DNA of 34,226 nt from Oscillospiraceae bacterium. GTDB taxonomy: Bacteria; Bacillota; Clostridia; Oscillospirales; Oscillospiraceae. Under the pieces are notes generated by a model. It had not been told where the DNA came from and searched no databases. It worked only from the letters and a program-made list of their open reading frames with translations. How positions within the stretch are numbered: the stretch's first letter is position 1; the number at the start of each line of letters is the position of its first letter. Shown piece after piece: positions 6,550-34,226 of this stretch. Where the stretch lies: the NCBI GenBank assembly GCA_017416325.1, contig JAFQCV010000029.1, forward strand, positions 1-34,226, in the 5' to 3' direction. The translations under genes and the position numbers were made by a program.

Positions 6550-6804
6550 TAAATTGCCATTTATCGGGCAGTTGCAAAGGCTTCCCCTTGAGGGGAAGCT
6601 GTCACCAAAGGCGGCTCTTCGCAACCGCTTTTGGTGACTGATGAGGTGTAGGCTGCGTAGCAGCCGTTACAAAACCTAACTTTCTGCTTCACAGACCGCC
6701 TCATCCGTCAAAAATCAGAGATTTTTGCCACCTTCCCCTCAAGGGGAAGGCTTTGCGGCTGCGCTGCCGAGTTCGAACCAACTCCCCGACAAACGGGAAT
6801 TGGC
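6550..6804. repeat. Bracketed composite element 1 (bracket + CTTCCCC family)
   Basis: The left bracket TTGCCATTTATCGGGCAG (6553-6571) and right bracket CGACAAACGGGAATTGGCA (6787-6804) are inverted copies of one another and enclose the CTTCCCC-family element. Together with the half-element at 6821-6867 this fills the gap between upp and the exporter promoter; no gene is seen in it. Confidence 0.65.
6574..6756. repeat. CTTCCCC-family palindromic element, copy 1
   Basis: Terminal inverted repeats GCAAAGGCTTCCCCTTGAGG and, at the other end, CCTCAAGGGGAAGGCTTTGC. Inside are hairpins GTCACCAAA.GCGG / CCGCTTTTGGTGAC (6601-6638), GGCTGCGTAGCAGCC, and CAAAAATC/GATTTTTG. A related copy in the other orientation is at 26348-26589. 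No coding capacity; MITE-like. Confidence 0.75.
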
Positions 6805-6820
6805 ACGACGGCTGAGGGGA

Positions 6821-6867
6821 ATTTAAAATGTCGCCTTTGGCGACACCTTCATTATCCATTATCCATT
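6821..6867. repeat. ATTATCCATT-family element, half copy
   Basis: Contains ATTTAAAATGTCGCC with the hairpin GTCGCCTTTGGCGAC and one terminal set ATTATCCATTATCCATT; the ATTTCC/GGAAAT half is missing. It abuts the upp terminator. Confidence 0.6.
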
Positions 6868-6868
6868 A

Positions 6869-6900
6869 AAAAAGTGGCACGGAAATCCGTGCCACTTTTT
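6869..6900 (-). terminator. Terminator of the tsaE-tsaB-upp operon
   Basis: Perfect 15-bp stem (AAAAAGTGGCACGGA / TCCGTGCCACTTTTT) with a 2-nt centre, 4 nt after the upp stop and followed by a T-run on the minus strand. Confidence 0.85.
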
Positions 6901-6904
6901 ACCC

Positions 6905-7534
6905 TTATTTTGTACCGAAGATCCGGTCGCCGGCATCGCCGAGGCCCGGAATGATGTAGGCATGCTCGTTGAGCTTCTCGTCGCAGGCCGCCATGTAGAT
7001 ATCCACATCCGGATGCGCCTCCTGCACCGCCTTTATACCTTCGGGGCAGCCGATAATGTTCATCATGATGATGTGCCTGCAGCCCCGGGCCTTGAGAAAA
7101 TCAATGGCAGCAACGGCGCTGCCGCCGGTAGCCAGCATAGGGTCTACCACGAACACCTGCCGGTTCTCAATATCCTCCGGCAGCTTGCAGTAGTATTCCA
7201 CAGGCTTGTGGGTCTCGGGGTCCCGGTAAAGACCGATATGACCGATCTTGGCAGAGGGGATCAGATCCACCATGGCATCCACCATACCCAGACCTGCCCG
7301 GAGAATGGGGACGATAGCCAGCTTCTTGCCTGCCAGTACCCGGCATTTTGCCATTGCCACAGGCGTCTGTACCTCCACCTCACGGGTGGGCAGATTCCGG
7401 GTAGCTTCGTAGCACATCAGACCGGAAATTTCACTGACAAGTTCCCGAAATTCCTTAACAGAGGTCTTCTTGTTGCGCAGGATCGCCAGCTTGTGCTGGA
7501 TCAGGGGATGATTGATCACCTTAACAATGGCCAT
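6905..7534 (-). CDS. upp: Uracil phosphoribosyltransferase
   Basis: 209 aa, the normal length. Salvages uracil with PRPP to make UMP in the cytosol. The PRPP-binding loop [14 protein letters not shown] lies at about 130-143 and the C-terminal [15 protein letters not shown] carries the uracil-contacting segment. The start has AAAGGAG about 8 nt upstream. It lies 35 nt after tsaB and probably is the last gene of a tsaE-tsaB-upp operon, followed by a strong terminator. All expected motifs are intact. Confidence 0.95.
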
Positions 7535-7569
7535 GTTTCTCTTTCTCCTTTATCTGTTTGTTGATTTTC

Positions 7570-8280
7570 TTATTGCGAAGAAGCGGCCTGCCGCTCCATG
7601 CGCTCCCGCTCCGCCTGGGAAAGACGCAGGTAATTGGGTGTCAGGCTGCCGCCGTCACCGGCATCGCCCACGGCGATCCTGTTGAGCGCCGCCAAGCCTA
7701 CGCCCACCGCCCGCTGATGCAGCCGGTGCTCCGGTGGCATCACCAGACCGGGAACACTTTCTGATAATACATTATAGCACAAATTACTGCCATCGCCAAC
7801 TAAAAAAATAGGTTTTGATAATTTTTTTAACTCAATTTTTAAGTCTTCCAGGGAAATGGCCCGGTCTTCCGTCTGCCGCGTCACGCCTCCTTGGTTTACA
7901 TAAAACAGCGCATTGTATACTTGGCTCCGCCGGGCATCCATCACCGGGCAAACCACACCGTCCCAAACGCCCAGGCCCAGCGACATGGCCTCCAGGGTGG
8001 ACACCCCGTAAATGGGAAGCTCCCCGCCCCAGGCAAAGCCCTTGGCTGCCGCCACGCCGATCCGGACTCCGGTAAAGGAGCCGGGACCATTTGCGACCGC
8101 CACCGCCTCCACTTGGGCAGGTGTTTTTCCGCATTGGGACAAAAGGTTTTCCGCCATCACCAGCAGGGTCTGGCTGTGGGTCAGGCCGGTATTCTGATAC
8201 TGTTCTCCCAGCAGAGTGTTTCCGTCAAACAAGGCCACGGACGCAGCCTTAGCGCTGGTCTCAAAGGCAAGCAGCAGCAA
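7570..8280 (-). CDS. tsaB: tRNA t6A biosynthesis protein TsaB
   Basis: 236 aa ASKHA-fold protein that pairs with TsaD in making threonylcarbamoyladenosine-37 of ANN-decoding tRNAs. The N-terminus LLLAFETSAKAASVALFDG and GPGSFTGVRIGVAAAKGFA are family hallmarks. It overlaps tsaE by 20 nt, so the two are translationally coupled. Oddity: codons covering about 7760-7850 (EDLKIELKKLSKPIFLVGDG and the following NLCYNVLSE) are strikingly AT-rich in an otherwise GC-rich gene, and a TTATGTAAAC motif lies at 7894-7903. That patch may reflect recombination or weak constraint. TsaD is not in the window. Confidence 0.93.
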   Translation of the reverse strand: MLLLAFETSAKAASVALFDGNTLLGEQYQNTGLTHSQTLLVMAENLLSQCGKTPAQVEAVAVANGPGSFTGVRIGVAAAKGFAWGGELPIYGVSTLEAMSLGLGVWDGVVCPVMDARRSQVYNALFYVNQGGVTRQTEDRAISLEDLKIELKKLSKPIFLVGDGSNLCYNVLSESVPGLVMPPEHRLHQRAVGVGLAALNRIAVGDAGDGGSLTPNYLRLSQAERERMERQAASSQ

Positions 8281-8698
8281 ATTCCTCGCCCCCCTCTACG
8301 GTAATTCTCCGGGACTGCTCCCCGGTTTTTTCTATGGTCACAAAAATAGCGTTTTCCATGGCGTCTTCTACATTTTCGCTCCATTCCACGGCGCAGACAC
8401 CGCCCCGGTCCAGATAATCCTCCCAACCGATGTCCCAAAGGTCATCGCTGGAAGAAAGCCGGTACATGTCAAAATGGAACAGGGGCAGCCGCCCGCCCAG
8501 ATACTCCTGCACGATGGTGTAGGTAGGGCTGGTCACCAAGCCGGTGTAGCCCAGCCCCCGGGCAAGCCCCCGGGTAAAGGCAGTCTTCCCCGCGCCCAGA
8601 TCTCCCCGGTAAGCGATCACCGCGCCGCTATTCAGTTGCCGGGCCAACGCCGCGCCCACGGCTTCCGTTTCTTCCGGCGATCGGGTAATAAATTCCAT
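8261..8698 (-). CDS. tsaE: tRNA t6A biosynthesis ATPase TsaE
   Basis: 145 aa P-loop ATPase that drives the TsaBD complex in t6A synthesis. Walker A RGDLGAGKTAFTRGLARGLG at about 31-50; SPTYTIVQEY and GGRLPLFHFDMYRL follow, both typical of the family. The start has GAGGAAG upstream. It is the first gene of tsaE-tsaB-upp; directly upstream lies a REP palindrome. Confidence 0.93.
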   Translation of the reverse strand: MEFITRSPEETEAVGAALARQLNSGAVIAYRGDLGAGKTAFTRGLARGLGYTGLVTSPTYTIVQEYLGGRLPLFHFDMYRLSSSDDLWDIGWEDYLDRGGVCAVEWSENVEDAMENAIFVTIEKTGEQSRRITVEGGEEFAAACL

Positions 8699-8715
8699 AA
8701 AACTTCCTCACTTTT

Positions 8716-8744
8716 CGTAGGGCGGGGTCATGACCCCGCCGACC
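8716..8744. repeat. REP palindrome R1, beside the RAYT gene
   Basis: CGTAG followed by the perfect 20-bp palindrome GGCGGGGTCATGACCCCGCC (8721-8740) and GACC. A single REP sits between tsaE and the 3' end of the transposase gene and marks one edge of the RAYT locus. Confidence 0.8.
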
Positions 8745-8755
8745 AATTCGCCACA

Positions 8756-9232
8756 TTATAGCTTTTGGGGTGTATAAAAACAGTCCTCCGTCCACCTTGC
8801 CACATTGGTATCAATATACTGCCAAATTCTTTCGTAATCGGCTTGATTTCGTATTACATGATCGTGAAAAGAGGTTTGCCATACTTTTAAATCCGGTTGG
8901 TTTCCGTGAATCCTTTTCGTAACCGCAGACTTATATAGCCCTACAACTGTCGACAGTTCTACATTTCCCGACAGTATGATGATTCCATGAACATGATTGG
9001 GCATAACTGTCCACTTATCTGCTTTTGTATTTGGAAAGTGCTTTTCTATCTCCAAAAAACATTCCCGCGCTATTTTTCCATAAGCCGAAAGTTTACCCGG
9101 TGTCCCAAAAATCCACTCCTTTTCATGGGTGCAAACCGTGATAAAGTAGTAATAGGGAGCTGCATAATCAAAGTTTTGCATCCGGGGATTCTTTCGCACC
9201 GGAAACCGCTCTATCTCTACATGATTTTGCAT
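8756..9232 (-). CDS. REP-associated tyrosine transposase (RAYT, Y1/IS200-like HUH)
   Basis: 158 aa. The YYYFITVCTHEKEWIFG stretch, the HUH pair in VMPNHVHGIII and a catalytic tyrosine candidate in RNQADYERIWQYI are the TnpA_REP/Y1 transposase layout; SFHDHVIRNQ is also typical of RAYTs. Such enzymes nick and join single-stranded REP hairpins. The frame extends 66 codons upstream, but those codons run through the REP pair at 9309-9443 and their composition is repeat-derived, so I chose the internal Met preceded by GGTGA at 6 nt. REP palindromes lie on both sides within 80 nt. The gene looks intact and may be active or recently so. Confidence 0.88.
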   Translation of the reverse strand: MQNHVEIERFPVRKNPRMQNFDYAAPYYYFITVCTHEKEWIFGTPGKLSAYGKIARECFLEIEKHFPNTKADKWTVMPNHVHGIIILSGNVELSTVVGLYKSAVTKRIHGNQPDLKVWQTSFHDHVIRNQADYERIWQYIDTNVARWTEDCFYTPQKL

Positions 9233-9308
9233 CTGTATCACCGTTCCTAAATCGCAACTCTGTCGGAGACCACATAACAAAGCATTACATACAGATTCCT
9301 TTTCTCTT

Positions 9309-9443
9309 CGTAGGGCGGGGTCATGACCCCGCCGACCATGTTTCCTATATTGAATTTTCTGTTTTTCTATAAACCTACTAAAACAAAGCGTGAACCTGCT
9401 CAAAATAACGCAGCCCATCGGCGGACTCATGAGTCCGCCCTAC
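9309..9443. repeat. BIME-like REP pair A
   Basis: Two REPs in inverted orientation, CGTAG-GGCGGGGTCATGACCCCGCC (9309-9333) and GGCGGACTCATGAGTCCGCC-CTAC (9420-9443), separated by an AT-rich spacer that includes AACCTACTAAAACAAA and TGCTCAAAATAACGCA. Different palindrome arms keep perfect pairing about TCATGA. It lies just upstream of the RAYT start. Confidence 0.8.
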
Positions 9444-9464
9444 ACACCCTTTCACTTACCGCTT

Positions 9465-9586
9465 CGTAGGGCGGGGTCATGACCCCGCCGACCACTTTTG
9501 CTACTCTCCTCTGTTTCGACCGTTTTCAATAGACTATTTTCACATAAGTTGGAAGCTTGTCGGCGGACTCATGAGTCCGCCCTACG
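9465..9586. repeat. BIME-like REP pair B
   Basis: Inverted REPs GGCGGGGTCATGACCCCGCC (9470-9489) and GGCGGACTCATGAGTCCGCC (9562-9581) with flanking CGTAG/CTACG and an unrelated AT-rich spacer. With pair A it fills the 375-nt gap between RAYT and prfA; no other gene is seen there. Confidence 0.8.
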
Positions 9587-9607
9587 AAAAAGAAGTCCTT
9601 TGGGGTC

Positions 9608-10666
9608 TTACTGAGAATTTTTAAGCTTCTCCGCCTGGTCGGCAGTAGCCAGGGCATCGATGATCTCCTCGATATCTCCGTCCATAATGGCGTCGATCTT
9701 ATACAGGGTCAGCCCGATCCGGTGATCGGTGACACGGCCCTGGGGAAAATTATAGGTGCGTATCCGTTCATTGCGCATGCCGCTGCCCACCTGGCTGCGG
9801 CGCATACCCGTGACCTCAGAAGAAAGCTTCTCCTGCTCGATCTCGTAAAGCTTACTGGCAAGCAGGCGCATACATTTTTCCCGGTTTTGCAGCTGACTTC
9901 TCTCCTCCTGACAGGCCACCACGATCCCCGAGGGCTTGTGGATCAGCCGTACCGCGGAAGATGTCTTGTTGACATGCTGACCGCCGGCGCCGGAGGCCCG
10001 GTATACCTGCATCTCAATATCCTTGGGGTCTAACTGCACATCCACCTCTTCCATTTCCGGCAGCACTGCCACCGTGGCGGTGGAGGTGTGGACACGGCCG
10101 CCGGACTCTGTTTCCGGCACCCGCTGTACCCGGTGGACACCGGATTCATACTTCATCCGGGAATATGCCCCCCGACCGTTGATGACAAAATCCGCTTCCT
10201 TGACGCCGCCCAGCTCCGTTTCGTTGTAGTTCATCAGCTCCACGGTCCAGCCGCGTTTGGCGGCATACATGGTATACATCCGAAACAGACTGTGGGCAAA
10301 CAGGGCGCTTTCTTCTCCGCCGACGCCGCCCCGGATCTCCACAATGACGCTTTTCTCGTCGTTGGGGTCTTTGGGCAGCAGCAGGATCTGCAGCTTGTCA
10401 AAGAGCTCTTCCCGGGCAGCCTTGGCTGCCTGGTATTCCTCTTGGGCCATATCCTTCATTTCCGGGTCATGCATCAGTTCCTGGGCATCCAGCATATCCT
10501 GCTGGGCCCGGTTATAGTCATGATACGCCGAAACAATCGGCTCCAAGTCATTTTTCTCCCGCAGCAGCTTGGCTGCCTTTTGGGGGTCTGCGTAAAAATC
10601 CGGCTGTTCCGATTTGAAGCAAAGCTCTTCAAACCGATCCGCCACAGCCCGCAGCTTATCGAGCAT
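9608..10666 (-). CDS. prfA: Peptide chain release factor 1
   Basis: 352 aa class I release factor reading UAA and UAG. The hydrolysis motif GGQ is at 228-230 in SGAGGQHVNKTSSAVR and the codon-recognition PxT motif is PET in VQRVPETESGGR (about 184). The chosen ATG (MLDKLRAVADRF) has GGAGAGG 5 nt upstream and matches family starts; 12 further upstream codons are open but run into the bracket repeat. It stands alone between two REP clusters, and no terminator is obvious. Confidence 0.95.
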   Translation of the reverse strand: MLDKLRAVADRFEELCFKSEQPDFYADPQKAAKLLREKNDLEPIVSAYHDYNRAQQDMLDAQELMHDPEMKDMAQEEYQAAKAAREELFDKLQILLLPKDPNDEKSVIVEIRGGVGGEESALFAHSLFRMYTMYAAKRGWTVELMNYNETELGGVKEADFVINGRGAYSRMKYESGVHRVQRVPETESGGRVHTSTATVAVLPEMEEVDVQLDPKDIEMQVYRASGAGGQHVNKTSSAVRLIHKPSGIVVACQEERSQLQNREKCMRLLASKLYEIEQEKLSSEVTGMRRSQVGSGMRNERIRTYNFPQGRVTDHRIGLTLYKIDAIMDGDIEEIIDALATADQAEKLKNSQ

Positions 10667-10696
10667 ACTTACCTCTCCTGTGATGTTCAAATATCC

Positions 10697-10914
10697 AACC
10701 AATTCCCGTTTATCGGGCAGCTGCGATAGAATTCGTAGGGCGGAGTCATGACTCCGCCGACCACTTTTCGAATAGCGAAAAGTTTATATTTTTCTAAAAC
10801 CTACCAAAATAAATGGACGAAACTGCGCAAAATCATGCAACCTGGTCGGCGGGCTCATGAGCCCGCCCGACGCACGCATGCTTTACAACACGCCAAAAAA
10901 TGGCAATTCCCTGA
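10697..10914. repeat. Bracketed composite element 2 (bracket + BIME pair C)
   Basis: Left bracket CCAATTCCCGTTTATCGGGC (10698) and right bracket AAAAATGGCAATTCCC (10896-10911) enclose a REP pair. This fills the gap between prfA and the PBP2 stop codon; no gene seen. Confidence 0.65.
10734..10872. repeat. BIME-like REP pair C
   Basis: Inverted REPs GGCGGAGTCATGACTCCGCC (10739-10758) and GGCGGGCTCATGAGCCCGCC (10848-10867). The spacer shares AAACCTACCAAAATAAA and TCATGCAACCTGGTCGG with pairs A and D, so the whole pair, spacer included, is a mobile unit. Confidence 0.8.
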
Positions 10915-10919
10915 CTTTC

Positions 10920-13022
10920 TCAGCTGACCTGGTTCTCGCCGCTGCTGATATCGCCGGCATCCACAGAGGTGTACCAGACATTCAGGATCTCCCGGGCCAC
11001 GCTGCCCACCAGGGAGCCGCCGCCGCACTTCTCGCCAAAGATCACGATGGCGATCTGGGGATCGTCATAGGGCGCAAAGCAGGCGAAAGAGCCGTTATCG
11101 GAACCGCCGGAACCGTGTTCGGCAGTACCTGTCTTAGCACCCACCGCCCGGGGGTATTGCCCAAACACACCGTGGGCCGTACCCATAGGGTTGGTAACCG
11201 CCGCGCGCATACCTTCCTTACAGGCCTGCAGCGCAGCATCGGAAATCTCCATAGTGCTCATGATCTCCGGGGAATTCTGGACGATGGTATTGCGGTAATC
11301 GGAAGACACCACCCGGTTTAAGAAGGTGGCTCTATAGCGAACGCCTTGATTTAAAAGCGTAGAAATATATACGCACATCTGCATAGGCGTAAACTGGTTG
11401 TCCGACTGTCCGATGGCCGCCATGATCTGGTCAGCCTGGTACCAGTGGGCATCCTGGCCGGTATGGAGGATGGCTTTGGTCTCGGGATTTGCCCGATATC
11501 CCTTCTGCTCCGGCAGCTCCACGCCGGTGAGCTCACCCAGCCCGAAGCCTTTGACGGTGGAATCCATCACACTCAGACCCATATGGTCGCCCAGATCGTA
11601 GAAGAAATAGTTGCAAGAGAACATCAGCGATTCTGCCGCGCAGATAGCGCCGTGGGTGTAGGTTCCTCCCGAAAGGGTGTAGGACAGGCATTTGGGGGCA
11701 AAGCCCTGATGCACATACTTAGTATACACACCGTGGTCCATCACCCGGGTGGTGGGCGTGATCTGACCGCTATCGATACCGGCAACTACCATGGCCGGCT
11801 TATAAATCGATCCGGGGGCATAGGTCAGCTGCAAAGGCCTATTGTTCAGCGGACCGTAATCTGCCTCCAGAATACTTTGATAATCTTCAAAAAAGGTGGA
11901 AAGGTCGTAGGTGGGATAGCTGGCGCAAACCAAAACCTTGCCGGTTTTGATGTCGATGGCTACTGCCGCGCCGCCTTCGGCGTCCTGTCCGGTGGCACCC
12001 TCTTCCTGGGCTTTCAAACCGGCAAACACCCGTGCCAAGGCTTCCTCTGCCGTCTGCTGCAGCGCCAGGTCAATGGTCAGTTCCACATTCTGGCCGGGAA
12101 CAGGACGCATTTCCTGGCCGGTTTCCGGGTCTTTCCGATAGTATTGCTCCAGGATCGTGCCGTCTACAGCCGTCACATCCACCCGGTAGCCGTCCACGCC
12201 ATGCAGATATTCTTCAAAGGCCTGCTCCAAGCCGGACTGACCCACCAGGGCATCCATTTCGTAGCCGTCCTGCTCCTTGTACTGCGCCCACTGATCCTTC
12301 GTCATGGGTCCCACATAGCCCAGAATGTGCGCCGCGCAGTCGGTGGCATATTCCCGGACGGTGGAGGCCTCTGTGCGAAGACCCGGAATGTTCAGCTCCA
12401 AAATGGCTGACAGCTCTTCCGTAGAAGCGTCCTCCAGGAAGACATAGTTGGACAGATTGGTCAGCTCCTGCCGCAGCGCCAGCTCATAGCGGATGCCGAT
12501 CACCGCCCGGGCATCGGTGTCTGACCAATCCGCGGGAATTTTATAGAAGCTGCGCAGCTGGGACAGCAGCAAGGTCGCGGATACATCCGTATCCAGCTTC
12601 GCCCGCTCTGCCAGGAATTTCTGAAAATACCCCTGCCAGGCATCGTTGTACTCATTTAACGTATAGGTAAAAGGCACCTGGGTCGTCATAGGAAAGTGAT
12701 CCACATAGTCGATCTCCATTTCCCGGCACAGCGCCGTCAGATTCTTCAGCGCCTGATTCGGGCCCTCAGAGCTAAGGAGCACAAAGTGGTTAAATACCAG
12801 ATCGTAGCTGGCCCGGTTGGTGACCATCTTGTTTCCGTTGCCGTCCAGTATTTCACCCCGGGGCGCCTTGACCCGGGTGATGGTGGTAAAGGTCTTGACG
12901 TTGTCTCCGGTGCCGTCAGACTCGATGATCTGCAGATCATACAGCCGGGCAGCAAACACGCCAACGATCAGAATAAACAGAGCCAGCAGTAAGCCTGCTC
13001 TGGCGCGGGTCAGTCTTTCCAT
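10920..13022 (-). CDS. mrdA: Penicillin-binding protein 2 (elongation transpeptidase)
   Basis: 700 aa class B PBP that cross-links lateral-wall peptidoglycan. One N-terminal membrane anchor (about 8-28), a dimerisation/pedestal region beginning VKAPRGEILDGNGNK (51-65), then the transpeptidase with active-site SIYK (405-408), SCN (469-471) and KTG (630-632). The start overlaps mreD by 13 nt with GGAGGAG upstream. mreC-mreD-PBP2 order is typical of the rod complex; mreB and rodA are not in this window. All catalytic motifs are intact. Confidence 0.92.
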   Translation of the reverse strand: MERLTRARAGLLLALFILIVGVFAARLYDLQIIESDGTGDNVKTFTTITRVKAPRGEILDGNGNKMVTNRASYDLVFNHFVLLSSEGPNQALKNLTALCREMEIDYVDHFPMTTQVPFTYTLNEYNDAWQGYFQKFLAERAKLDTDVSATLLLSQLRSFYKIPADWSDTDARAVIGIRYELALRQELTNLSNYVFLEDASTEELSAILELNIPGLRTEASTVREYATDCAAHILGYVGPMTKDQWAQYKEQDGYEMDALVGQSGLEQAFEEYLHGVDGYRVDVTAVDGTILEQYYRKDPETGQEMRPVPGQNVELTIDLALQQTAEEALARVFAGLKAQEEGATGQDAEGGAAVAIDIKTGKVLVCASYPTYDLSTFFEDYQSILEADYGPLNNRPLQLTYAPGSIYKPAMVVAGIDSGQITPTTRVMDHGVYTKYVHQGFAPKCLSYTLSGGTYTHGAICAAESLMFSCNYFFYDLGDHMGLSVMDSTVKGFGLGELTGVELPEQKGYRANPETKAILHTGQDAHWYQADQIMAAIGQSDNQFTPMQMCVYISTLLNQGVRYRATFLNRVVSSDYRNTIVQNSPEIMSTMEISDAALQACKEGMRAAVTNPMGTAHGVFGQYPRAVGAKTGTAEHGSGGSDNGSFACFAPYDDPQIAIVIFGEKCGGGSLVGSVAREILNVWYTSVDAGDISSGENQVS

Positions 13023-13588
13023 TCTTCTCCTCCAATTTTGCCGATGAAAAACGCCAAAGGATATATTACCGGCACGACCGCAATACTCAGTACGCTCGTG
13101 ATCAAAAATACAGACATTCTGCCAAAATAGGTATTTCCCAGGAACACGCCAAAGGCAAACACCGCCAGCTCATATACCGTCAGTCCCAGGATCATGCACA
13201 GGAAGACGGAACGAAAGCGCCTGCTCAGCAGGGTGTGGCGCAAAATATTCAGCAGCACCCCCAAAAAGGTCAGCAGTACGATACAGTAGTAGCCTTGGGC
13301 AGAGCCGGAGAATACATACAGCGCCGAACCGATCAGCGCAAAGATCCCGCCGGATTCCGGAGACTGGAGCAGGCAAATGAGCAAAATGCCGCAGGCTACC
13401 AGATCGGTAGTGCCGCCCCGGAACTGGAAGCGGCTCATGACCACATCCTGCACCAGAGACAGCGCCAGCAGCAGCGCTCCATATAACGACCATTTCAGCA
13501 GACTGAACCGCTGTTTTTTTGTCAGATACAGCCGGCTTTTCCAGGAAGCCCCCATGGGATCGGGTCTAAAATCATAACGTTTTCTCAT
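13010..13588 (-). CDS. mreD: Rod-shape-determining protein MreD
   Basis: 192 aa with a basic cytoplasmic N-terminus and about five to six membrane helices starting at SLYGALLLALSLVQDVVMSR, followed by RGGTTDLVACGILLICLLQS. Part of the elongasome that links MreB to PBP2. Sequence is weakly conserved in this family; the assignment rests on size, topology and position 4 nt after mreC and overlapping PBP2. Confidence 0.85.
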   Translation of the reverse strand: MRKRYDFRPDPMGASWKSRLYLTKKQRFSLLKWSLYGALLLALSLVQDVVMSRFQFRGGTTDLVACGILLICLLQSPESGGIFALIGSALYVFSGSAQGYYCIVLLTFLGVLLNILRHTLLSRRFRSVFLCMILGLTVYELAVFAFGVFLGNTYFGRMSVFLITSVLSIAVVPVIYPLAFFIGKIGGEEWKD

Positions 13589-13592
13589 ACCG

Positions 13593-14423
13593 TCACCCGA
13601 CCTGGAAGCCAGTCACTACAAACACCTGCTCCAGAGCTCTGATATCCGCTGCCGGAGTCAGAATGGCATACTTGGCAACGCCAGTTTCTGTATAAGAGGC
13701 GTCTACCACCTTGCCCAGAACCAAGTTTCTGGGATACACGGTAGAACCGGAAGTCACCACCTGGTCACCGTTTTTCAAAATGGCGGAAGAGGGCAGATAT
13801 TCCATCCGCAGCATCTGCTCCTGGCCGCTTTGATAGCCGCCCAGCACCATGCCGCTGTAGCCGGAGGAAGCGATGGTGGCGCTGATCTGCAAAGAGCTGT
13901 CCATAACGGTCTTGATGACCGCATAGTTGCTTCCTACCTTGCTTACCAGACCCACCACCTCGCCGTTGGCAGTGATGGCGCACATGCCCACCTCGATCCC
14001 GTGGTCGCTGCCCCGGTTTATGGTGATATTGCTGACCCAGTCCACAGAATCCCGGGAGATGATGTAGCCGTCTACCAGATCATAGTCAGGGTTGTCCTCT
14101 TTCAGCTGCAGAAGCTGCCGCAGCCGCGCCAGCTCCCGGGCCATGGCATCCGCTTCCCGGGCCACGTCCTCCATTTCCGCCAGCTGCTGCTGAAGCTTTT
14201 CGTTCTCCGCAGAAAGGGTCTCATACCGGAAGATATAGCTATACATCTGCTCAGCCTGGTTCGTAAGCTTGCTGGCAGCGGTACGCAGCGGTGTCAGCAC
14301 ATACTGGACGGTCATTTCCCCTAAGGACAGTCCCGTCAGATTGTTCACCACCGCCAAAGAAGCGGCAAGCAACAGGGCCACCACCAGAACCACCCGTACC
14401 TTTGTTGAAAATAAATGCTTCAT
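13593..14423 (-). CDS. mreC: Rod-shape-determining protein MreC
   Basis: 276 aa. One N-terminal membrane helix (VVLVVALLLAASLAVVNNLT), a coiled coil (SAENEKLQQQLAEMEDVARE and following, about 73-115) and the extracytoplasmic double beta-barrel with GVEVG-like IEVGMCAITANGEVVGLVSK. Scaffolds the cell-wall elongation machine. The SD AGGAGG is preceded by the perfect hairpin GCGGGCACTGCCCGC, which is also found before eutE. Upstream maf and downstream mreD match the maf-mre gene order of Bacillus-type genomes. Confidence 0.92.
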   Translation of the reverse strand: MKHLFSTKVRVVLVVALLLAASLAVVNNLTGLSLGEMTVQYVLTPLRTAASKLTNQAEQMYSYIFRYETLSAENEKLQQQLAEMEDVAREADAMARELARLRQLLQLKEDNPDYDLVDGYIISRDSVDWVSNITINRGSDHGIEVGMCAITANGEVVGLVSKVGSNYAVIKTVMDSSLQISATIASSGYSGMVLGGYQSGQEQMLRMEYLPSSAILKNGDQVVTSGSTVYPRNLVLGKVVDASYTETGVAKYAILTPAADIRALEQVFVVTGFQVG

Positions 14424-14435
14424 ATATCCTCCTTG

Positions 14436-14450
14436 GCGGGCAGTGCCCGC
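14436..14450 (-). promoter_or_regulatory. Leader hairpin abutting the mreC SD
   Basis: GCGGGCACTGCCCGC (minus strand) folds as a 6-bp stem with a 3-nt loop and is followed within 1 nt by CAAGGAGG, the mreC ribosome site. The same 15-mer stands in the same place before eutE (28068-28082). It may restrict or insulate initiation, or be a bracket-repeat remnant. Confidence 0.5.
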
Positions 14451-14451
14451 T

Positions 14452-14556
14452 AATTGACAATGGAAAATGGATAATGGACAATGTTGGAGTCGCCTTTGGC
14501 GACGATTTTAAATACATTTCCGAAGGAAATACCGCAATTATCCATTATACATTATC
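14452..14556. repeat. ATTATCCATT-family element, copy M1
   Basis: Ends are runs of ATTGACAATGG / ATTATCCATT-type units in inverted orientation; the core has hairpins GTCGCCTTTGGCGAC and CATTTCCGAAGGAAAT. Lies between maf and mreC. Confidence 0.8.
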
Positions 14557-14593
14557 AAATATCCTTTCGTGTGTTAGCCCTAGGAACGGTATT

Positions 14594-15163: not shown

Positions 15164-15180
15164 ACTTGCTCCTTAAAAAT

Positions 15181-15331
15181 TAAATTCCCGTTTATCGGGC
15201 AGGTTTTACCTGCCATTGGATAATGGATAATGTATAATGGATAATGAAGGAGTCGCCTTCGGCGACATATTTGAAATCATTTCCGAAGGAAATACCGAAA
15301 TTTTCAATTATCCATTATCAATTATCCATTT
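15181..15331. repeat. ATTATCCATT-family element, copy M2, with left bracket
   Basis: Left bracket AATTCCCGTTTATCGGGCAG (15183) and a short hairpin CAGG-TTTTA-CCTG precede the element at 15216-15331, whose core hairpins are GTCGCCTTCGGCGAC and CATTTCCGAAGGAAAT. There is no right bracket: the element ends against the U32 gene stop. Confidence 0.75.
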
Positions 15332-15334
15332 TCT

Positions 15335-17531: not shown

Positions 17532-17716
17532 ACAAATTGCCATTTATCGAGCAGGCTGCGCCTGCCAATGGATAATGGAAAATGTATAATGGATAATGAT
17601 TGTGTCGCCAAAGGCGACGATTTTAAATCATTTCCGAAGGAAATACCACAATTATCCATTATCAATTATCCATTATCCATTCGGGCATCATCCCGACAAA
17701 CGGGAATTGGCAAATG
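17532..17716. repeat. Bracketed composite element 3 (bracket + M3)
   Basis: Left bracket AAATTGCCATTTATCGAGCA (17534) with hairpin GCAGGCTGCGCCTGC, and right bracket CGACAAACGGGAATTGGCAA (17694-17713), enclose an ATTATCCATT element. The gap between U32 and the dehydratase gene holds only this, the U32 promoter and a terminator. Confidence 0.7.
17567..17681. repeat. ATTATCCATT-family element, copy M3
   Basis: Core hairpins GTCGCCAAAGGCGAC (loop inverted relative to M1) and CATTTCCGAAGGAAAT; ends are repeated AATGGATAATGG / ATTATCCATT units. Confidence 0.8.
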
Positions 17717-19753: not shown

Positions 19754-19791
19754 GTAAAAAAGCAAATCGATCCCCCGGCACGCCCCGGCAC

Positions 19792-19970
19792 ATTGCCATT
19801 TATCGTGCTGACGCTCGAATGGATAATTGATAATGGATAATGGATAATTGTGGTATTTCCTGCGGAAATGATTTAAAAATCATCGCCAAGGGCGATACAA
19901 TCATTATCCATTATACATTTTCCATTATCCATTGGCAGGTGCAACCTGCCACACAAACGGGAATTGGCAA
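19792..19970. repeat. Bracketed composite element 4 (bracket + M4)
   Basis: Left bracket ATTGCCATTTATCGTGCTGA (19792) and right bracket ACAAACGGGAATTGGCAA (19953-19970) enclose an ATTATCCATT element in reverse orientation. A GCAGGTGCAACCTGC hairpin lies next to the right bracket. The rest of the gap holds the promoter at 19725 and the metG terminator. Confidence 0.7.
19818..19933. repeat. ATTATCCATT-family element, copy M4 (reverse)
   Basis: Reverse orientation; core hairpins ATTTCC-TGC-GGAAAT and ATCGCC-AAG-GGCGAT, both with changed loops and one changed pair that stays complementary. Confidence 0.8.
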
Positions 19971-22475: not shown

Positions 22476-22621
22476 AATTGCCATTTCTCGAGCAGGCTGC
22501 GCCTGCTAATGGATAATGGAAAATGGATAATGGACAATGAAGGAGTCGCCTGCGGCGACATATTTCAAATCATTTCCGAAGGAAATACCGCAATTATTCA
22601 TTATCAATTATCCTTTGTCAA
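22476..22621. repeat. ATTATCCATT-family element, copy M5, with left bracket
   Basis: Left bracket AAATTGCCATTTCTCGAGCA and hairpin GCAGGCTGCGCCTGC, then the element (22508-22621) with core hairpins GTCGCCTGCGGCGAC and CATTTCCGAAGGAAAT. The right end runs into eutH, supplying its last codons and stop. Confidence 0.75.
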
Positions 22622-23690
22622 TTTTTCTTGTCAGCAGCAGCGCCACCGCCGCTGCGGTGATGCCCCCTGCCAGCTTGCCAACGATCACCGCCGGGAGCAT
22701 TTCCGGAGCAAATCCGGCGGTAAAGCCCAAATGATCTCCAAATACAAAGGCGGCGCTGACGGCAAAGGCCACATTCACCACCTTGCCCCGGTGATCCATG
22801 TCTTTGACCATGCCAAAGGTGGCGATGGAGTTAGCCAAACTGGCAATCAAACCTGCCGCCGCCGTGTCATTGATCCTGAGCAGCCGCCCAAACTTCTGAA
22901 GCGGCTTTTTCAGCAGCTTGGTGATCAAAAACACCAGAGGAAACGCCCCAGCCAGGACGATGGCGATAGCGCCCACCGTCAAAAAACCGTCCTCAATGGG
23001 CGCCATGCCGGGAATGACCGTAAACCCTGTGAGACCTTCCACAATGGCAGCCGCCAAGCCTGCGGTGATCACCGCCACAATAAGTTTGCCAAAGATCCCG
23101 AAGCCTTTGATCATGGCCGTTTCCGCTTTCCACAGGCCAAATGCGATGAGCGCGCCGATGATCACAATGGGGACGAGATTTCGAAGCACCATCATCACCG
23201 GAAATCCCGCCACCAAGCCGCCTGCCAGCACACCTATGGGAATGGTGACGATGCCGCAAAGGATCCCCTTTGCCGCCGCAGGCTTGTCTTCCTCCCGCAA
23301 GATCCCCATAGCCACCGGGATGGTAAATACGATGGTTGCGCCCAGCATAGACCCGGTAATGACGCCGCCCAAAGCCGCCGCCTGGGGATCGCCCGTCAGC
23401 TCCTGCGCCAGAGGACCGCCGCCCATGTCGCAGGCAAGGAGCGTCCCGGCGAACATGGCCGGGTCTGCCCCTAAAAATTCATATACCGGCACCACAACCG
23501 GCCGTAAAAGCCCCGCCAACACCGGTGCTAAGGTGATGATCCCCACCATGGCCATGGCAAGAGCGCCCATGGCCTGGATACCGTTTTCAAATTCCGCGCC
23601 CAGGCCAAACCGGTTTCCCAAGATCCGGTCCAGCGCGCCCAATACCGCGAATACCGCCATCACGGCAATCACAATTTCATGGGCAGACAT
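22608..23690 (-). CDS. eutH: Ethanolamine permease EutH
   Basis: 360 aa, about ten membrane helices, Gly/Ala-rich. Sequence such as DMGGGPLAQELTGDPQAAAL and FVFGDHLGFTAGFAPEMLPA is characteristic of EutH, which admits ethanolamine when external concentration or pH is low. GGGGAG precedes the ATG. It is the last eut gene in the transcript. The final codons (KIDKG-stop) are encoded by the end of repeat M5, so the natural C-terminus has probably been replaced. Confidence 0.92.
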   Translation of the reverse strand: MSAHEIVIAVMAVFAVLGALDRILGNRFGLGAEFENGIQAMGALAMAMVGIITLAPVLAGLLRPVVVPVYEFLGADPAMFAGTLLACDMGGGPLAQELTGDPQAAALGGVITGSMLGATIVFTIPVAMGILREEDKPAAAKGILCGIVTIPIGVLAGGLVAGFPVMMVLRNLVPIVIIGALIAFGLWKAETAMIKGFGIFGKLIVAVITAGLAAAIVEGLTGFTVIPGMAPIEDGFLTVGAIAIVLAGAFPLVFLITKLLKKPLQKFGRLLRINDTAAAGLIASLANSIATFGMVKDMDHRGKVVNVAFAVSAAFVFGDHLGFTAGFAPEMLPAVIVGKLAGGITAAAVALLLTRKIDKG

Positions 23691-23826: not shown

Positions 23827-24053
23827 TTCGCGTCCAAAATCGCCACCACGGCGGCATCCACCGGGGCATCCATACAGTACCGGGACGCCACCGTTCCCGT
23901 GGCCAGCAGTACCCGGTCGCCTACCCCGGCGCCTACATGATCCGCCGCCACAATGGACTCATTGTTCACATCTACCACCAAAAAGGTCTGACCGGAAAGG
24001 CAGGCAGCCTTCCGGGTGGCCCATACCGAGCCGGTCACTTTTCCGATCTTCAT
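23823..24053 (-). CDS. eutN: Microcompartment pentameric vertex protein EutN
   Basis: 76 aa; starts MKIGKVTGSVWATRKAACLS and continues LVVDVNN, GAGVGDRVLLATGTVASRY, the EutN/CcmL fold. Five copies close the vertices of the microcompartment shell. The longer upstream frame is rejected because the ATG overlaps the previous gene's stop by 4 nt (ATGA), as expected in this tightly packed operon. The stop codon TAA is read from the end of repeat M6. Confidence 0.93.
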   Translation of the reverse strand: MKIGKVTGSVWATRKAACLSGQTFLVVDVNNESIVAADHVGAGVGDRVLLATGTVASRYCMDAPVDAAVVAILDAK

Positions 24054-25053: not shown

Positions 25054-25080
25054 GCTTTCACATCCTGTACTTCATTTTTA

Positions 25081-25291
25081 CCAATTCCCGTTTTTCGGGC
25101 AGCCTCGTACGGCTTCGTAGGGCGGGGTCATGACCCCGCCGCTCACTTTCCGGATTCTGAAAAGCTTAAAATATCAAAAAACATACCGAAATAATAGACG
25201 AAACTACTCAAAATAATGCAACCTGGTCGGCGGACTCATGAGTCCGCCCTACGCACGCATAATTTGCGACTGCCCGGTAAATAGCAATTTA
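25081..25291. repeat. Bracketed composite element 5 (bracket + BIME pair D), eutT-pduL gap
   Basis: Left bracket CCAATTCCCGTTTTTCGGGC and right bracket TGCCCGGTAAATAGCAATTT (25270-25289) enclose a REP pair. The right end overlaps the eutT stop codon. No gene inside. Confidence 0.7.
25116..25258. repeat. BIME-like REP pair D
   Basis: REPs GGCGGGGTCATGACCCCGCC (25121-25140) and GGCGGACTCATGAGTCCGCC (25229-25248); the spacer matches pair C over most of its length, including AGACGAAACTACTCAAAAT and ATGCAACCTGGTCGG. Confidence 0.85.
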
Positions 25292-28082: not shown

Positions 28083-28149
28083 TGACATTTCGAGTCTGGC
28101 AGGCCGGCAGCGGTCGTTACCCCTTTGGGCCTGCCCGATTCGATACAAA

Positions 28150-28345
28150 TACCCGTTTACCGGGCAGTTTCGTTAGGATTCGTAGGGCGGACTCATGAGT
28201 CCGCCGATCACTTTCCGGATTCTAAAAAGTTTGTATTTGCAAGCTTTTTCAAAAAAGCATTGTCCCAGCCGTACAAAATGTTTAACCGGGTCGGCGGGCT
28301 CATGAGCCCGCCCTACGAATAAACTCCCCGAGAAATGGCAAATTA
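28150..28345. repeat. Bracketed composite element 6 (bracket + BIME pair E), eutL-eutE gap
   Basis: Left bracket TACCCGTTTACCGGGCAG and right bracket CGAGAAATGGCAAATTA (28331-28345) enclose a REP pair; the right end contains the eutL stop codon. Confidence 0.65.
28181..28317. repeat. BIME-like REP pair E
   Basis: REPs GGCGGACTCATGAGTCCGCC (28186-28205) and GGCGGGCTCATGAGCCCGCC (28293-28312). The first ~40 nt of spacer resemble pair D (TCACTTTCCGGATTCT) but the second half has diverged. Confidence 0.85.
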
Positions 28346-29889: not shown

Positions 29890-30071
29890 CATTCAGTTTT
29901 CCGTTTATCGGGCGGCCGATGGCTGCAAATTGACAATTGAAAATTGACAATGGACAATTTAGGTATCGCCAAAGGCGACATTTTAAAAATCATTTCCGAA
30001 GGAAATACCGAAATTTTCAATTATCCATTATCAATTGTCCATTCGTGCGTCAGCCCGACAAATGGCAATTT
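29890..30071. repeat. Bracketed composite element 7 (bracket + M7), eutB-eutC gap
   Basis: Left bracket TTTTCCGTTTATCGGGCGGC, right bracket CCCGACAAATGGCAATTT (30054-30071); the right end touches the eutB stop codon. Confidence 0.65.
29928..30043. repeat. ATTATCCATT-family element, copy M7
   Basis: Ends with AATTGACAATTG / CAATTATCCATT-type units; core hairpins TCGCCAAAGGCGA and CATTTCCGAAGGAAAT. Confidence 0.8.
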
Positions 30072-31436: not shown

Positions 31437-31451
31437 AATTACCTCCAGTTT

Positions 31452-31561
31452 TAATTGACAATTGAAAATTGACAATGGACAATTAAGGTGTCGCCTTTGG
31501 CGACATTTTTTAAATCATTTCCGAAGGAAATACCACAATTGTCAATTATCCATTATCCATT
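31452..31561. repeat. ATTATCCATT-family element, copy M8, eutA-eutB gap
   Basis: Nearly identical to M7 at its left end; core hairpins GTCGCCTTTGGCGAC and CATTTCCGAAGGAAAT; the right end supplies the eutA stop codon. No bracket seen. Confidence 0.8.
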
Positions 31562-32938
31562 TGCGCTTAGCACCAAAGTCTTGATGACCACCGGCAGCGC
31601 CGGACCCACCGGCTCGCCGATGTCCAGATAGCTTCCTTGCTGGAGTTTTAACGAATCCATGCACACAAAGCTGGTATCCTTAGGCAGCCGCAGAGCCATT
31701 GCCTGCCCCAGGGCCTTTGCCATGTCCTGCTCCAGGGCAACATATACCGGTCTTCCCCCAAAGCCCCGGGAAAGCCCCTCCGCCAGGGCAACTACCCGGT
31801 CATACTCCGGAGACGAAAACCCCGGCAGCGCCAAAACACTGTCCGTATCCTGCTGAGACAGCCTTTTTTCCACCAGCTGTGCCAGTTCCTCCGGCGCCAG
31901 CTCCTGCTCCCGGGAAGTCACCTGCGCCACCGGCAGATTCTTAAGGGGCAAGGAAGCGTTGCGGCAAAACACCGTGCTTCCCGACAGCCGGACACTGTGG
32001 CACCCCGCGCCAATGACCGTTGCCCGGATGGTGTGGTCTCCCAATCGGTATTCCCCCCGGCACAAACGGCTTTTCCCAATCTCTTCGCCCAAGATAGGGC
32101 CTAAGTCTCCAAATTCCCGCCAGTCCCGGACTGTTTCGATGCAGTCGGCCACGCCCCCGGAAAAGGAGACCACCACCGCGCTTTCCGGCGGCTCAGGCGC
32201 GTCTCCCGCCTCCCGGGTGCTCAGCTGCTCCAACAGGGGCGTGACTTCCCGGAGACCCGCCGCCATTTCCAAAGCCTCCACCAGAACTTTCGCCACCGGG
32301 CGCAGAACATCCGGGGACGCGGTCTCTCCCACATTTAGTTTACATAACTCTTTTAATACCGGGGATACGTAGGTGATTTGATCCTGCTCGTCAAATTTCA
32401 CCAGCCGTCCTCCCACATTGAGGCAGGCAGTTGACATAACATTCCCGTTTTCCACCAACGCCAGATTGCTTGTGCCGCCGCCGATGTCCATGTGCAGCAC
32501 CTTTTTCCCGGTTTTTTCCGAAAAATCCGTTGCCCCAGCGCCTTTTGCCGCCAATACACTTTCCAAGTGCGGGCCGGCTGTTGCCACCACAAACTCTCCG
32601 GCAAACGCAGAAAGCGCATCCAGCACCTGCCGGGCGTTTTCCCGCCGCGAGGTCTCCCCGGTGATGATCACCGCTCCGGTGTCCACATCCGCCGGGGATA
32701 TCCCTGCCCGGTGATACTCTTTCTCTACAATTTCCCGAATACCAGTCCCATCCACCAGCCCTGTTCCGATGAGGGGCGTAAGATACACCTCACTCTGATG
32801 CCGCAGCTGCCGCCCGGTAATTTGCAGCTGTGGCACAGCAAAGCTTGACGCCTGATTCTCCACCGTAAGCTCCGACACCACCAGCTGGGTGGAAGTTGTC
32901 CCCACATCCAGACCCACGCTGCAAAGCCGCTCAGCCAC
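31553..32938 (-). CDS. eutA: Ethanolamine ammonia-lyase reactivating factor EutA
   Basis: 461 aa ASKHA-type chaperone that uses ATP to release damaged cobalamin from EutBC. Phosphate-binding segments SVGLDVGTTSTQLVVSEL at the start and LHMDIGGGTSNLALVENG near 170. Starts with GTG, overlapping eutG by 8 nt, with GAGGTGA upstream. Two TTATGTMAAC motifs (32338-32347 and 32430-32439) fall in different codon phases. The last two codons (NG) and TAA stop lie in repeat M8. Confidence 0.94.
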   Translation of the reverse strand: MAERLCSVGLDVGTTSTQLVVSELTVENQASSFAVPQLQITGRQLRHQSEVYLTPLIGTGLVDGTGIREIVEKEYHRAGISPADVDTGAVIITGETSRRENARQVLDALSAFAGEFVVATAGPHLESVLAAKGAGATDFSEKTGKKVLHMDIGGGTSNLALVENGNVMSTACLNVGGRLVKFDEQDQITYVSPVLKELCKLNVGETASPDVLRPVAKVLVEALEMAAGLREVTPLLEQLSTREAGDAPEPPESAVVVSFSGGVADCIETVRDWREFGDLGPILGEEIGKSRLCRGEYRLGDHTIRATVIGAGCHSVRLSGSTVFCRNASLPLKNLPVAQVTSREQELAPEELAQLVEKRLSQQDTDSVLALPGFSSPEYDRVVALAEGLSRGFGGRPVYVALEQDMAKALGQAMALRLPKDTSFVCMDSLKLQQGSYLDIGEPVGPALPVVIKTLVLSANG

Positions 32939-34013
32939 GGCCGGTCACCTCTTCCAGGATCTTGCGGATCATAAAATCCTCCACCTTCACGGGGTTTGTC
33001 TCACAGCAGGGGTCTGCCAAGGCGGCTTTCACCACATTGTCCATCTCCCGCCATATCTGCCGCGGCTGAATTCCCGCTTCTGCCAAAGTTGCCGGCAGCT
33101 TCATTTCCCGGCGCAGACGGATCAGTCCGTTTTTCAGATTGTGCACCGCCACCGTGTCGGCGCTGCCCCCCAAGCCTGCCGCCCGGGAAAGCCGGGCATA
33201 TTTCCCCGCCGCTGCCATGGCATTGCAGCCGATCACCGACGGAAGCAGGATGGCATTGAGCCGTCCGTGAGGTACATGGAACGCGCCGCCTAAGCTGTGG
33301 GCCAGGGCGTGACACAGACCCAGGCCCGCCTGGGTAAAGGCCATACCTGCCAAGGTGGACGCGTTGTGGATCTGCAGCCGCACCTCCTGCCGCCCGGCAA
33401 AGGAGGCCGGCAGATTGGCAAAGGCCGTACAAAAGGCATCCCGGGCCAAAGCGTCGGTAGCCGGGGAAGCGTTTTTCGCCACATAAGCTTCCAGGGCATG
33501 GCTCAGTACATCGAATCCCCCGTCTGCCACCAGACTTGGTGGCAGCTGCCCCAGGAAGCTGTCATCCAAAACCGCCAGCTCCGGGCGAAGCCGGGGGTCT
33601 ACCAGGGGGTACTTGACCCGGTTGTGGGTCAATACCGCGAAATCCGTCACCTCTGAGCCGGAGCCGGAAGTGGTAGGGACTGCCGCCAGCCGAATTTCCC
33701 TGCCGCTGAAATAAGCCATGGCTTTGGCGCAGTCCATGGCGCTGCCGCCCCCCAAAGCCACGATAACATCCGGCTGGAACGCCTTGACCTGAACCGTTCC
33801 CTCTGCCGCCAGCGCCACACTGGGGTCAGGCTCTACCCGGTCAAAGATCTCCACCTCCGGGGCCTCGGCAGCTTTCGCCACCCGGTCTGCCGTACCGTTC
33901 CGGGTAAAAAAGGGGTCGGTCACCAAAAACAGCCGCCGCGCCCCCAGATCCTTCAGCGCCGCAATCGCCCCGGTACCGGATACGATCTTGGTGCTGCAAT
34001 AAAATTCCTTCAA
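32931..34013 (-). CDS. eutG: Iron-dependent alcohol dehydrogenase EutG
   Basis: 360 aa group III alcohol dehydrogenase; reduces acetaldehyde to ethanol and regenerates NAD+ for EutE. NAD-binding VALGGGSAMDCAKA, then VPTTSGSGSEVT, and metal ligands in GGFDVLSHALEAY, CHALAHSLGG and HVPHG. The start codon appears to be TTG (no in-frame ATG or GTG before a TGA stop just upstream), with GGTGGGA as a weak SD, so initiation may be poor. It lacks an obvious encapsulation tag. The promoter of the operon is not visible and may lie beyond the window. Confidence 0.9.
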   Translation of the reverse strand: MKEFYCSTKIVSGTGAIAALKDLGARRLFLVTDPFFTRNGTADRVAKAAEAPEVEIFDRVEPDPSVALAAEGTVQVKAFQPDVIVALGGGSAMDCAKAMAYFSGREIRLAAVPTTSGSGSEVTDFAVLTHNRVKYPLVDPRLRPELAVLDDSFLGQLPPSLVADGGFDVLSHALEAYVAKNASPATDALARDAFCTAFANLPASFAGRQEVRLQIHNASTLAGMAFTQAGLGLCHALAHSLGGAFHVPHGRLNAILLPSVIGCNAMAAAGKYARLSRAAGLGGSADTVAVHNLKNGLIRLRREMKLPATLAEAGIQPRQIWREMDNVVKAALADPCCETNPVKVEDFMIRKILEEVTGRG

Positions 34014-34078
34014 ATTCCCACCGCCTTTTCACAGCCAGTATTCCCCATCGAAGAAAAATCATGTATTCCCAAAAATAA

Positions 34079-34226
34079 AATTGCCAATTCCCGTTTGTCG
34101 GGCAGTTAAGCCTCCCCTTGAGGGGAGGTGCCCCGTAGGGGCGGAAGGGTGAAAAACGCCAATTGCTTACGCTCTAAGGGTATTTCTCACCCCTCAGTCA
34201 GCCTGTTAGGCTGACAGCTCCCCTCA
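34079..34226. repeat. Bracketed composite element 8 (bracket + CTTCCCC family), runs off the window
   Basis: Left bracket TTGCCAATTCCCGTTTGTCG continuing GGCAG, then CCTCCCCTTGAGGGGAGG and hairpins GCCCCGTAGGGGC and GTCAGCCTGTTAGGCTGAC, ending CTCCCCTCA at the window edge. The 34014-34078 stretch before it holds only the weak eutG SD region. Confidence 0.6.

Follow-up and report, generated by a model that had tools for sequence, protein, structure and literature searches.

Asymmetric paired ends frame differing palindromic cores at shared intergenic sites in an Oscillospiraceae genome and two relatives

Considerably more than a hundred short intergenic palindromic repeats in the genome of an Oscillospiraceae gut bacterium (GenBank assembly GCA_017416325.1; 2.0 Mb, 90 contigs, 86% complete) are framed by a pair of unequal ends, which alignment separates into two distinct types, S (AAATT-GCCA-TTTNTCGGGCAG) and L (AATT-CCCG-TTTRTCGGGCAG), and the cores between them often differ from species to species at one and the same site. 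The window analysed here is the whole of contig C90 (34,226 bases); it was compared with two relatives, G404 (goat) and G357 (yak), using samples of 708 kb from its own genome, 657 kb from G404 and 378 kb from G357, 1.74 Mb together. As read from sequence, the S/L bracket would mark one family of mobile elements, hairpin-forming and non-autonomous, that sit at fixed docking sites between genes, where the occupant is overwritten by copying between residents; we give this reading an even chance of being right.

An earlier note on the window had described eight intergenic units with the same ends, the right end occurring in a full and a shorter form. The eight units are there: seven are complete, and the eighth is truncated at the end of the window, which is also the end of the contig. 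The supposed shorter form is the second end type, and all seven complete units have one S and one L end. An end pattern (AATTSCCRTTTRTCGGGCAG, up to three mismatches) matched 292 times in the 2.0-Mb genome against three times for the reversed pattern, and a 420-kb sample of that genome held 149 ends against five in reversed sequence. Adjacent ends less than 600 nt apart in this sample were convergent in 52 cases, divergent in 17 and tandem in one, with 104 of the 149 ends paired convergently within 600 nt. Mostly unpaired ends, which the earlier note had named as an outcome that would speak against the bracket as a functional unit, are therefore not what this genome holds. Looser detection found 168 of 277 ends paired in the own genome and 180 of 314 in G404; in G357, which has short contigs, the figure was only 46 of 121.

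The asymmetry of the pair is nearly invariant. S faced L in every one of the 42 pairs that could be fully classified in the 420-kb sample, where 10 further pairs had an unclear end, and in 152 of the 154 pairs classified at both ends under looser detection in the three species (S+L in 64, 68 and 20 pairs of the own genome, G404 and G357; one S+S and one L+L, both in G404; 43 additional pairs had one or two ends fitting neither type cleanly; reversed-sequence controls gave 44, 28 and 10 ends). A plain terminal inverted repeat whose ends are alike is thereby ruled out. Pairs mostly span 80–330 nt, are non-coding and have TTTNTCGGGCAG in common between their convergent ends, as expected of miniature inverted-repeat transposable elements (MITEs). 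Of 191 units, 128 have an exact AATT at both ends. The units are mostly intergenic, with 24 of 84 midpoints inside an open reading frame (ORF) of at least 150 amino acids compared with 707 of 820 random points. Both units that were folded gave hairpins far better than shuffles, as hairpin-forming doublets of repetitive extragenic palindromic (REP) sequences (REPINs) do: in the unit at 19790..19970 both ends pair in a single long hairpin (z −6.8), and in the second (z −11.1) the core makes up the long hairpin, the ends folding separately. The S end plus its flank could itself form CCGAYAAAT-TGCC-ATTTRTCGG; pairing of flank and arm as a guide to target choice was rejected, since nine position pairs showed no covariation.

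Within the bracket, short motif rules, not clustering, assign cores to families A (ATTATCC), B (REP or bacterial interspersed mosaic element, BIME; GTAGGGCGG..TCATGA), C (CTYCCCC), D (GTAGGGG), E (ATTAGGAAT, in G404), F (GTAACGAAT) and H (TCATCCCGAG, in G357), at least six by these rules where three had been described before. Cores B and D contain GTAG; the S and L consensus sequences carry neither the GTAG nor the CGTC tag of REPs and REPINs.

Orthologous gaps do hold different interiors, an outcome for which the earlier note had proposed to look. Positions 5000–24999 of the window are largely syntenic with G404 contig C20 and G357 contigs C73, C56 and C83, and over the samples 36 orthologous locus pairs are bracketed in both species, 34 of them in equal orientation. 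A strict set, with both edges no more than 8 nt from the predicted place, holds 19 loci, all 19 equally oriented; it leaves out the 17 pairs with a larger edge offset, including both pairs in opposite orientation. Interiors at four strict loci are 0.61–0.98 identical and those at the other 15 fall below 0.6, set against a background of 150 different-class pairs with a mean of 0.42 and a maximum of 0.61, near which two of the four similar pairs (0.61 and 0.66) lie. Even similarity is no proof of descent, because A cores at unrelated places are also alike. Nine of the 15 dissimilar pairs combine two different assigned families, three include an unclassified core and three are C-type on both sides. 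At the same place and in the same orientation, for example, an own-genome REP (L042:3456) corresponds to an ATTATCC core in G404, a C core (L038:18381) to an E core in G404, and an F core (L049:15080) to a C core in G357. These data sustain part of the earlier alternative between a landing pad and a module with swappable cargo, in that sites are shared and interiors differ, although the S/L bracket itself is not the constant part.

Mixing of interiors between repeat copies during short-read assembly could in principle give the same picture, as all three genomes are metagenome-assembled genomes (MAGs), the own genome being taken for one from its fragmentation, and many contigs end 100–180 nt inside an element. 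We consider this very improbable: the shared arms, at about 20 nt, are shorter than usual assembly k-mers, unrelated cores are not confusable by k-mers, both flanks had to be syntenic with a second species, and the pattern recurs in three MAGs.

Comparison of recent copies separates what moves from what stays. Same-genome copies of at least 97% identity (31 pairs, 37 units) match from AATT inward, their variable inner positions 11, 15 and 18 agreeing at 0.90, 0.87 and 0.97 compared with 0.33, 0.34 and 0.48 at random, and most positions of the flank motif (CCRAYA on the S side, KGMA on the L side) agree at about the random level; these pairs are not independent of one another, and G357 L175/L221, with identical flanks, is probably one locus on two contigs. 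Such identity inward and randomness outward indicate that the moving unit is AATT-S-core-L-AATT and that the motif stays with the site. Consistent with this, flanks outside AATT agree between orthologs at the 15 dissimilar loci (0.65–0.80 vs 0.28–0.48; none of 300 shuffles reached these values), and at such loci it is usually the whole S-core-L unit that appears to differ at a fixed AATT site. The putative docking sites read CCRAYA-AATT...AATT-KGMA, the elements sitting between two AATT. A search for unit-specific target duplications outside AATT (k = 3 to 9, 189 units) found nothing that stood out; because AATT is constant, a duplication specific to a unit cannot be shown.

The site motif is largely confined to occupied places. 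Scores of at least 9 were reached by 28 occupied sites, by 3 of 4414 unoccupied AATT sites and by 0 of 2376 control sites, with a score matrix trained on two species that have sites in common with the tested species. The exact joined motif is found at 18 of 81 occupied sites of the own genome and once unoccupied in that whole genome, which rules it out as a common genomic word; many matches in other species read CRAYAAATTGGAA and, not checked singly, look like variant ends of those species. Among 15 compared gaps without an element, three retain one AATT at the place (L045:16104 and L047:4805 vs G404; window 10697 vs G357, where further bases are lost), two keep a leftover half-bracket, and the remainder are too diverged or have no AATT.

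Three loci bear on whether an old end can persist while its core changes. A damaged L-end start, GCAACGGGAATT, is present at one locus where G404 has a C core and G357 an A core, and the 1.74 Mb contain no second instance of it; as the change lies inside the L end, the core changed here and the old end was kept. Two further starts are likewise confined to their own locus in these samples: AACTTTCCGTTTGTCG is shared by the own genome (REP core, with the S end lost) and G357 (A core), and AGTTTTCCG[TC]TT by the own genome (A, window 29895) and G404 (REP). If residents do exchange, new occupants would arrive by copying from an element elsewhere in the genome. The arms, which hardly vary (AAATTGCCATTT on the S side, AATTCCCGTTT on the L side), would be the points of exchange, perhaps through template switching or gene conversion at a replication fork stalled by a palindrome; orientation would be kept because S pairs only with S and L only with L.

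Much of this evidence can also be read as hot-spot insertion, a possible but to us rather doubtful alternative in which an S/L-specific transposase prefers the asymmetric target CCRAYA-AATT-KGMA and lineages fill the same sites independently, or refill them after precise excision, with no copying between residents. Such a transposase would account for near-identical copies matching from AATT inward and little outside, for the unrelated look of ends at orthologous sites with different cores, for the single AATT in three of 15 element-free gaps, for the near-complete occupancy of strong-motif sites (28 against 3), for occupancy sharing that does not track relatedness and for the arrival of S/L elements in foreign DNA, between phage genes. 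It sits less well with the excess of strong sites over random supply, given the control counts above, unless captured sites accumulate; with the GCAACGGGAATT end carrying different cores, which requires the old end to remain; and with the expectation that sites filled before the species split hold the same element, as only 4 of 19 are similar. Exchange and hot-spot insertion may both be acting.

Several observations weigh against overwriting by copying between residents. Wholesale re-insertion at the same AATT fits the data too, and the 15 best loci have no detectable end inheritance: from position 5 inward, their S and L ends are no more alike than shuffled pairs, positions 5–11 being so nearly constant that they are too uninformative for testing inheritance. 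In the AACTTTCCGTTTGTCG and AGTTTTCCG[TC]TT loci the change lies in AATT and may belong to the site, and flank position −5 is common to recent copies above the random level (0.58 vs 0.41). Arms of 11–20 nt are short for RecA-dependent exchange. A donor was traced for no exchange, and for 19 of the 30 elements at the 15 loci the samples, which cover between a quarter and a third of each genome, contain no copy of at least 90% identity. The two opposite-orientation pairs among the 36 have large offsets, and a single clear empty bracket appeared among the matches listed. Finally, G404 and G357 are closest to one another (identity 0.873 vs 0.839 and 0.850 over 79449 positions) and yet have fewer occupied sites in common than the own genome and G404. 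Located sites without a bracket pair numbered 10 of 34 from the own genome to G404 and 10 of 37 in return, 8 of 12 from the own genome to G357 and likewise 8 of 12 from G404 to G357, and 3 of 7 and 2 of 6 from G357 to G404 and to the own genome. Because occupancy does not track relatedness, parallel gains or many losses fit as well as inheritance.

Most cores of the own genome lie inside brackets; cores equally common without brackets, a second outcome that the earlier note had set against a functional unit, did not occur there. When cores near contig ends are set aside, those with a bracket end at both sides, at one side and at neither numbered 29/4/5 (A), 12/3/4 (B), 21/5/8 (C) and 6/0/0 (D) in the own genome, 36/4/4, 9/2/2, 28/11/12 and 1/0/1 for the same families in G404, and 7/5/2 (A) and 5/1/0 (H) but 6/0/7 (C) in G357, the query cores themselves having been taken from bracketed units. 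A copy of at least 90% identity elsewhere in the sample exists for 40 of the 84 own elements. The search for empty brackets that had been proposed earlier turned up at least one clear case among the matches listed (40 nt, G404 L165:17546-17585); a permissive expression returned mostly filled units and was discarded, and the idea of a landing pad of empty brackets is correspondingly weak.

S/L elements also reach foreign DNA, since units lie between phage genes. The S pattern matched three viral contigs in IMG/VR, two of which (L125 and L126) are the same phage region, and the contigs hold terminase, portal and tail genes as judged by reading their ORFs; no viral contig there matched the L pattern, and no match was found among named phages. 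Between these phage genes lie four S/L units, all with ATTATCC cores and one measuring just 86 nt. One phage element sits inside a AATTAGGAATACCG inverted repeat of the ATTAGGAAT type (L125 12080-12380 and L277 2200-2480), and in G404 the nesting is reversed, a ATTAGGAAT core lying inside S/L. Phage relatives were rejected as clean empty sites: two contigs with 77% protein identity carry other repeats in the gap, and two other phage-relative queries returned only the same phages.

That palindromes nest in each other, as this reciprocal arrangement indicates, lends some credit to nested insertion, by which an S-L hairpin came first and each core entered its centre independently. Cores do occur unbracketed, and the 40-nt empty bracket is orthologous to a filled one. 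We nonetheless regard nested insertion as improbable, given that empty brackets are very rare among the matches listed and that the inner bases of S and L, compared by eye, vary with core type and travel with the copy, so that core and ends move together.

The cores themselves have relatives next to genes, and on our main reading they would belong to other palindromic families: REPs similar to those beside the window's RAYT (REP-associated tyrosine transposase) gene, C-type repeats with coding forms that contain a DUF559 protein, and ATTATCC repeats, one coding form of which contains a 23S-rRNA-intervening-sequence protein (IVP). Eight Y1 (RAYT-type) matches occur in six of eight genomes searched, with none in G328 or G389. 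Core B REPs flank the Y1 gene in the own genome and G404, and the next gene looks alike in these two and G303. Four of the eight Y1 matches were viewed; the RAYT genes among them in the window and G404 have core B repeats, and no S or L end, within 260 nt, and no Y1 gene was seen beside S/L. DUF559 (PF04480) gave 14 matches in eight genomes, and all three viewed lie between C-type (CTYCCCC) arms, as if these copies were a coding version of the C repeat. Among five PF05635 genes viewed, two are enclosed by short repeats (arms of ATTATCC at L158, arrays of ATATCGA at L164) and three have repeats within 260 nt on the 5′ side only. Among the matches listed from the 1.74 Mb was one convergent S..L pair 450–3500 nt apart (G404 L150:1985-3497). 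It surrounds a 384-amino-acid ORF, and its S end is part of a different element whose L end is damaged, so that this is probably a gene lying between two elements. This analysis did not find the enzyme that first set S/L in motion.

Features of the window and of related loci are collected in Table 1. The half-brackets described earlier near 2704, 15181 and 22476 are borne out as a solitary L end, an L end with a core and an S end with a core. The window also holds ATTATCC copies without a bracket (23710-23824, 31453-31568 and 14452-14567) and REP copies without one (8714, 9307 and 9463). Its sole Rfam match at gathering score is a T-box leader (22021-22290, minus strand).

Table 1. Elements, partial brackets and associated genes in the window and at related loci
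Feature	Position	Strand	Basis	Remarks
S/L element, CTTCCCC-type core (C)	6551..6806	+	S left, L right; end pair	G404: dissimilar C-type element, interior identity 0.56, orientation unchanged
S/L element, REP/BIME core (B)	10697..10914	-	L left, S right; paired under looser rule	S end worn on inner side; gap in G404: ATTATCC core with one bracket end; G357: no element
S/L element, ATTATCC core (A)	17534..17713	+	S left, L right; end pair	G404: GTAGGGG-type core (D), orientation unchanged
S/L element, ATTATCC core (A)	19790..19970	+	S left, L right; end pair	
S/L element, REP/BIME core (B)	25078..25290	-	L left, S right; end pair	
S/L element, REP/BIME core (B)	28147..28344	-	L left, S right; end pair	Orthologous gap in G404: ATTATCC copy without bracket
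S/L element, ATTATCC core (A)	29895..30071	-	L left (AGTT for AATT), S right; end pair	G404: REP core behind identical CAGTTTTCCG L-end start; G357: no element
L end and CTCCCC-type core, cut by contig end	34082..34226	.	sequence	
Solitary L end	2695..2718	-	sequence	
L end and ATTATCC core, without S end	15183..15330	+	sequence	
S end and ATTATCC core, without L end	22476..22623	+	sequence	
RAYT-type Y1 transposase gene	8756..9430	-	ORF; PF01797 match 8807-9070	Core-B REPs both sides
Y1 (RAYT-type) match, G404	L148:10243-10716			
Y1 (RAYT-type) match, G303	L255:4707-4937			
DUF559 (PF04480) protein, own genome	L049:5936-6343			Between C-type arms
DUF559 (PF04480) protein, G404	L230:14308-14607			Between C-type arms
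DUF559 (PF04480) protein, G303	L255:461-769			Between C-type arms
23S-rRNA-intervening-sequence protein (PF05635), G404	L158:6432-6773			
23S-rRNA-intervening-sequence protein (PF05635), G404	L164:2880-3185			
23S-rRNA-intervening-sequence protein (PF05635), G404	L245:11024-11323			
23S-rRNA-intervening-sequence protein (PF05635), own genome	L201:4252-4563			
23S-rRNA-intervening-sequence protein (PF05635), own genome	L038:11902-12195			

Of 59 named stretches with the exact L-end pattern, 42 come from two MAGs of the Oscillospiraceae, RGIG1849 from goat caecum and RGIG9441 from yak caecum. Counts differ sharply across the genus (up to three mismatches, variants counted too): G404 has 335 matches, the own genome 292, G357 207 and G375 184, followed by genomes with 72, 64 and 63, by 26 with 6–33 and by 88 of the 121 with 0–5; in a set of 300 genomes from the whole family, searched with no more than two mismatches, none but the own genome exceeds eight. 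Stretches L251–L266 of G375, G389, G328 and G303 carry species-specific four bases between AATT and TTTRTCGG. Under a loose pattern, G375 combines CCGA with CCGG in four of six pairs and G389 combines ACAG with GGAR in six of nine, and the single pair of G328 has GGTG at both ends. Contigs C38 of G305 and C13 of G413 carry S/L ends of the own-genome type where the other listed ends are mostly variant, perhaps through binning contamination.

A bolder version of the exchange reading, which we put forward tentatively and think somewhat doubtful, holds that oriented docking sites (CCRAYA-AATT-KGMA) are inherited chromosome-wide and that their cassettes revolve, so that unrelated core families (REPs, DUF559-linked and IVP-linked repeats) would use one exchange interface; the four-base variants on an AATT-NNNN-TTTRTCGGGCAG frame would then look as if they co-evolve with a recognition enzyme.

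No description of S/L elements was met in the literature searched, which lay mainly outside subscription journals, though several known systems resemble them in part. Integron attC sites are structured, their fixed asymmetry sets orientation, and cassettes change at fixed sites. S/L elements are alike in having oriented sites with changing cassettes, a likeness by description and not by sequence comparison, and differ in that the cassettes seen are non-coding and the sites scattered singly; no array or integrase turned up, and no search for these was made. Bacterial MITEs are short and intergenic, have imperfect terminal inverted repeats and are copied within the genome. S/L elements share these traits and have AATT on both sides, but depart from MITEs in their fixed asymmetry, in one end pair around several seemingly unrelated interiors and in differing occupants at fixed sites. 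In Streptococcus, excerpts of the BOX literature describe boxA/boxC or boxE/boxF ends around boxB/boxD modules, and insertion of elements into one another (PMC3049150). By layout and description, BOX is similar in its fixed, different ends, variable modular interior, interspersed distribution and hairpin formation, whereas BOX interiors are modules of its own system and S/L interiors are whole palindromic families also found alone; S/L occupants, moreover, differ at orthologous sites. REPINs, according to excerpts of the sources, are inverted doublets with variable spacers (PMC3116915), and REP dimers with structured spacers have been described (PMC3733652). They resemble S/L elements in having two inverted palindromic ends, a variable spacer and many extragenic, non-autonomous, hairpin-forming copies. 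The differences are that S/L elements have no GTAG/CGTC tag, have a fixed S-L difference and mostly contain 40–290 nt of other repeats, and that the RAYT genes viewed in the own genome and G404 adjoin core B.

The usual view of small palindromic repeats is that each family is distinct and is gained or lost through transposition. In the genomes compared here, one asymmetric pair of ends serves several families, and a site stays occupied although the occupant is not the same in each species. If residents do exchange their contents, intergenic regulatory space would be rewritable without a new insertion event, and the repeat content at a site would be unreadable as descent. The strict S/L asymmetry, together with the four variable bases, offers a direct handle for finding the enzyme.

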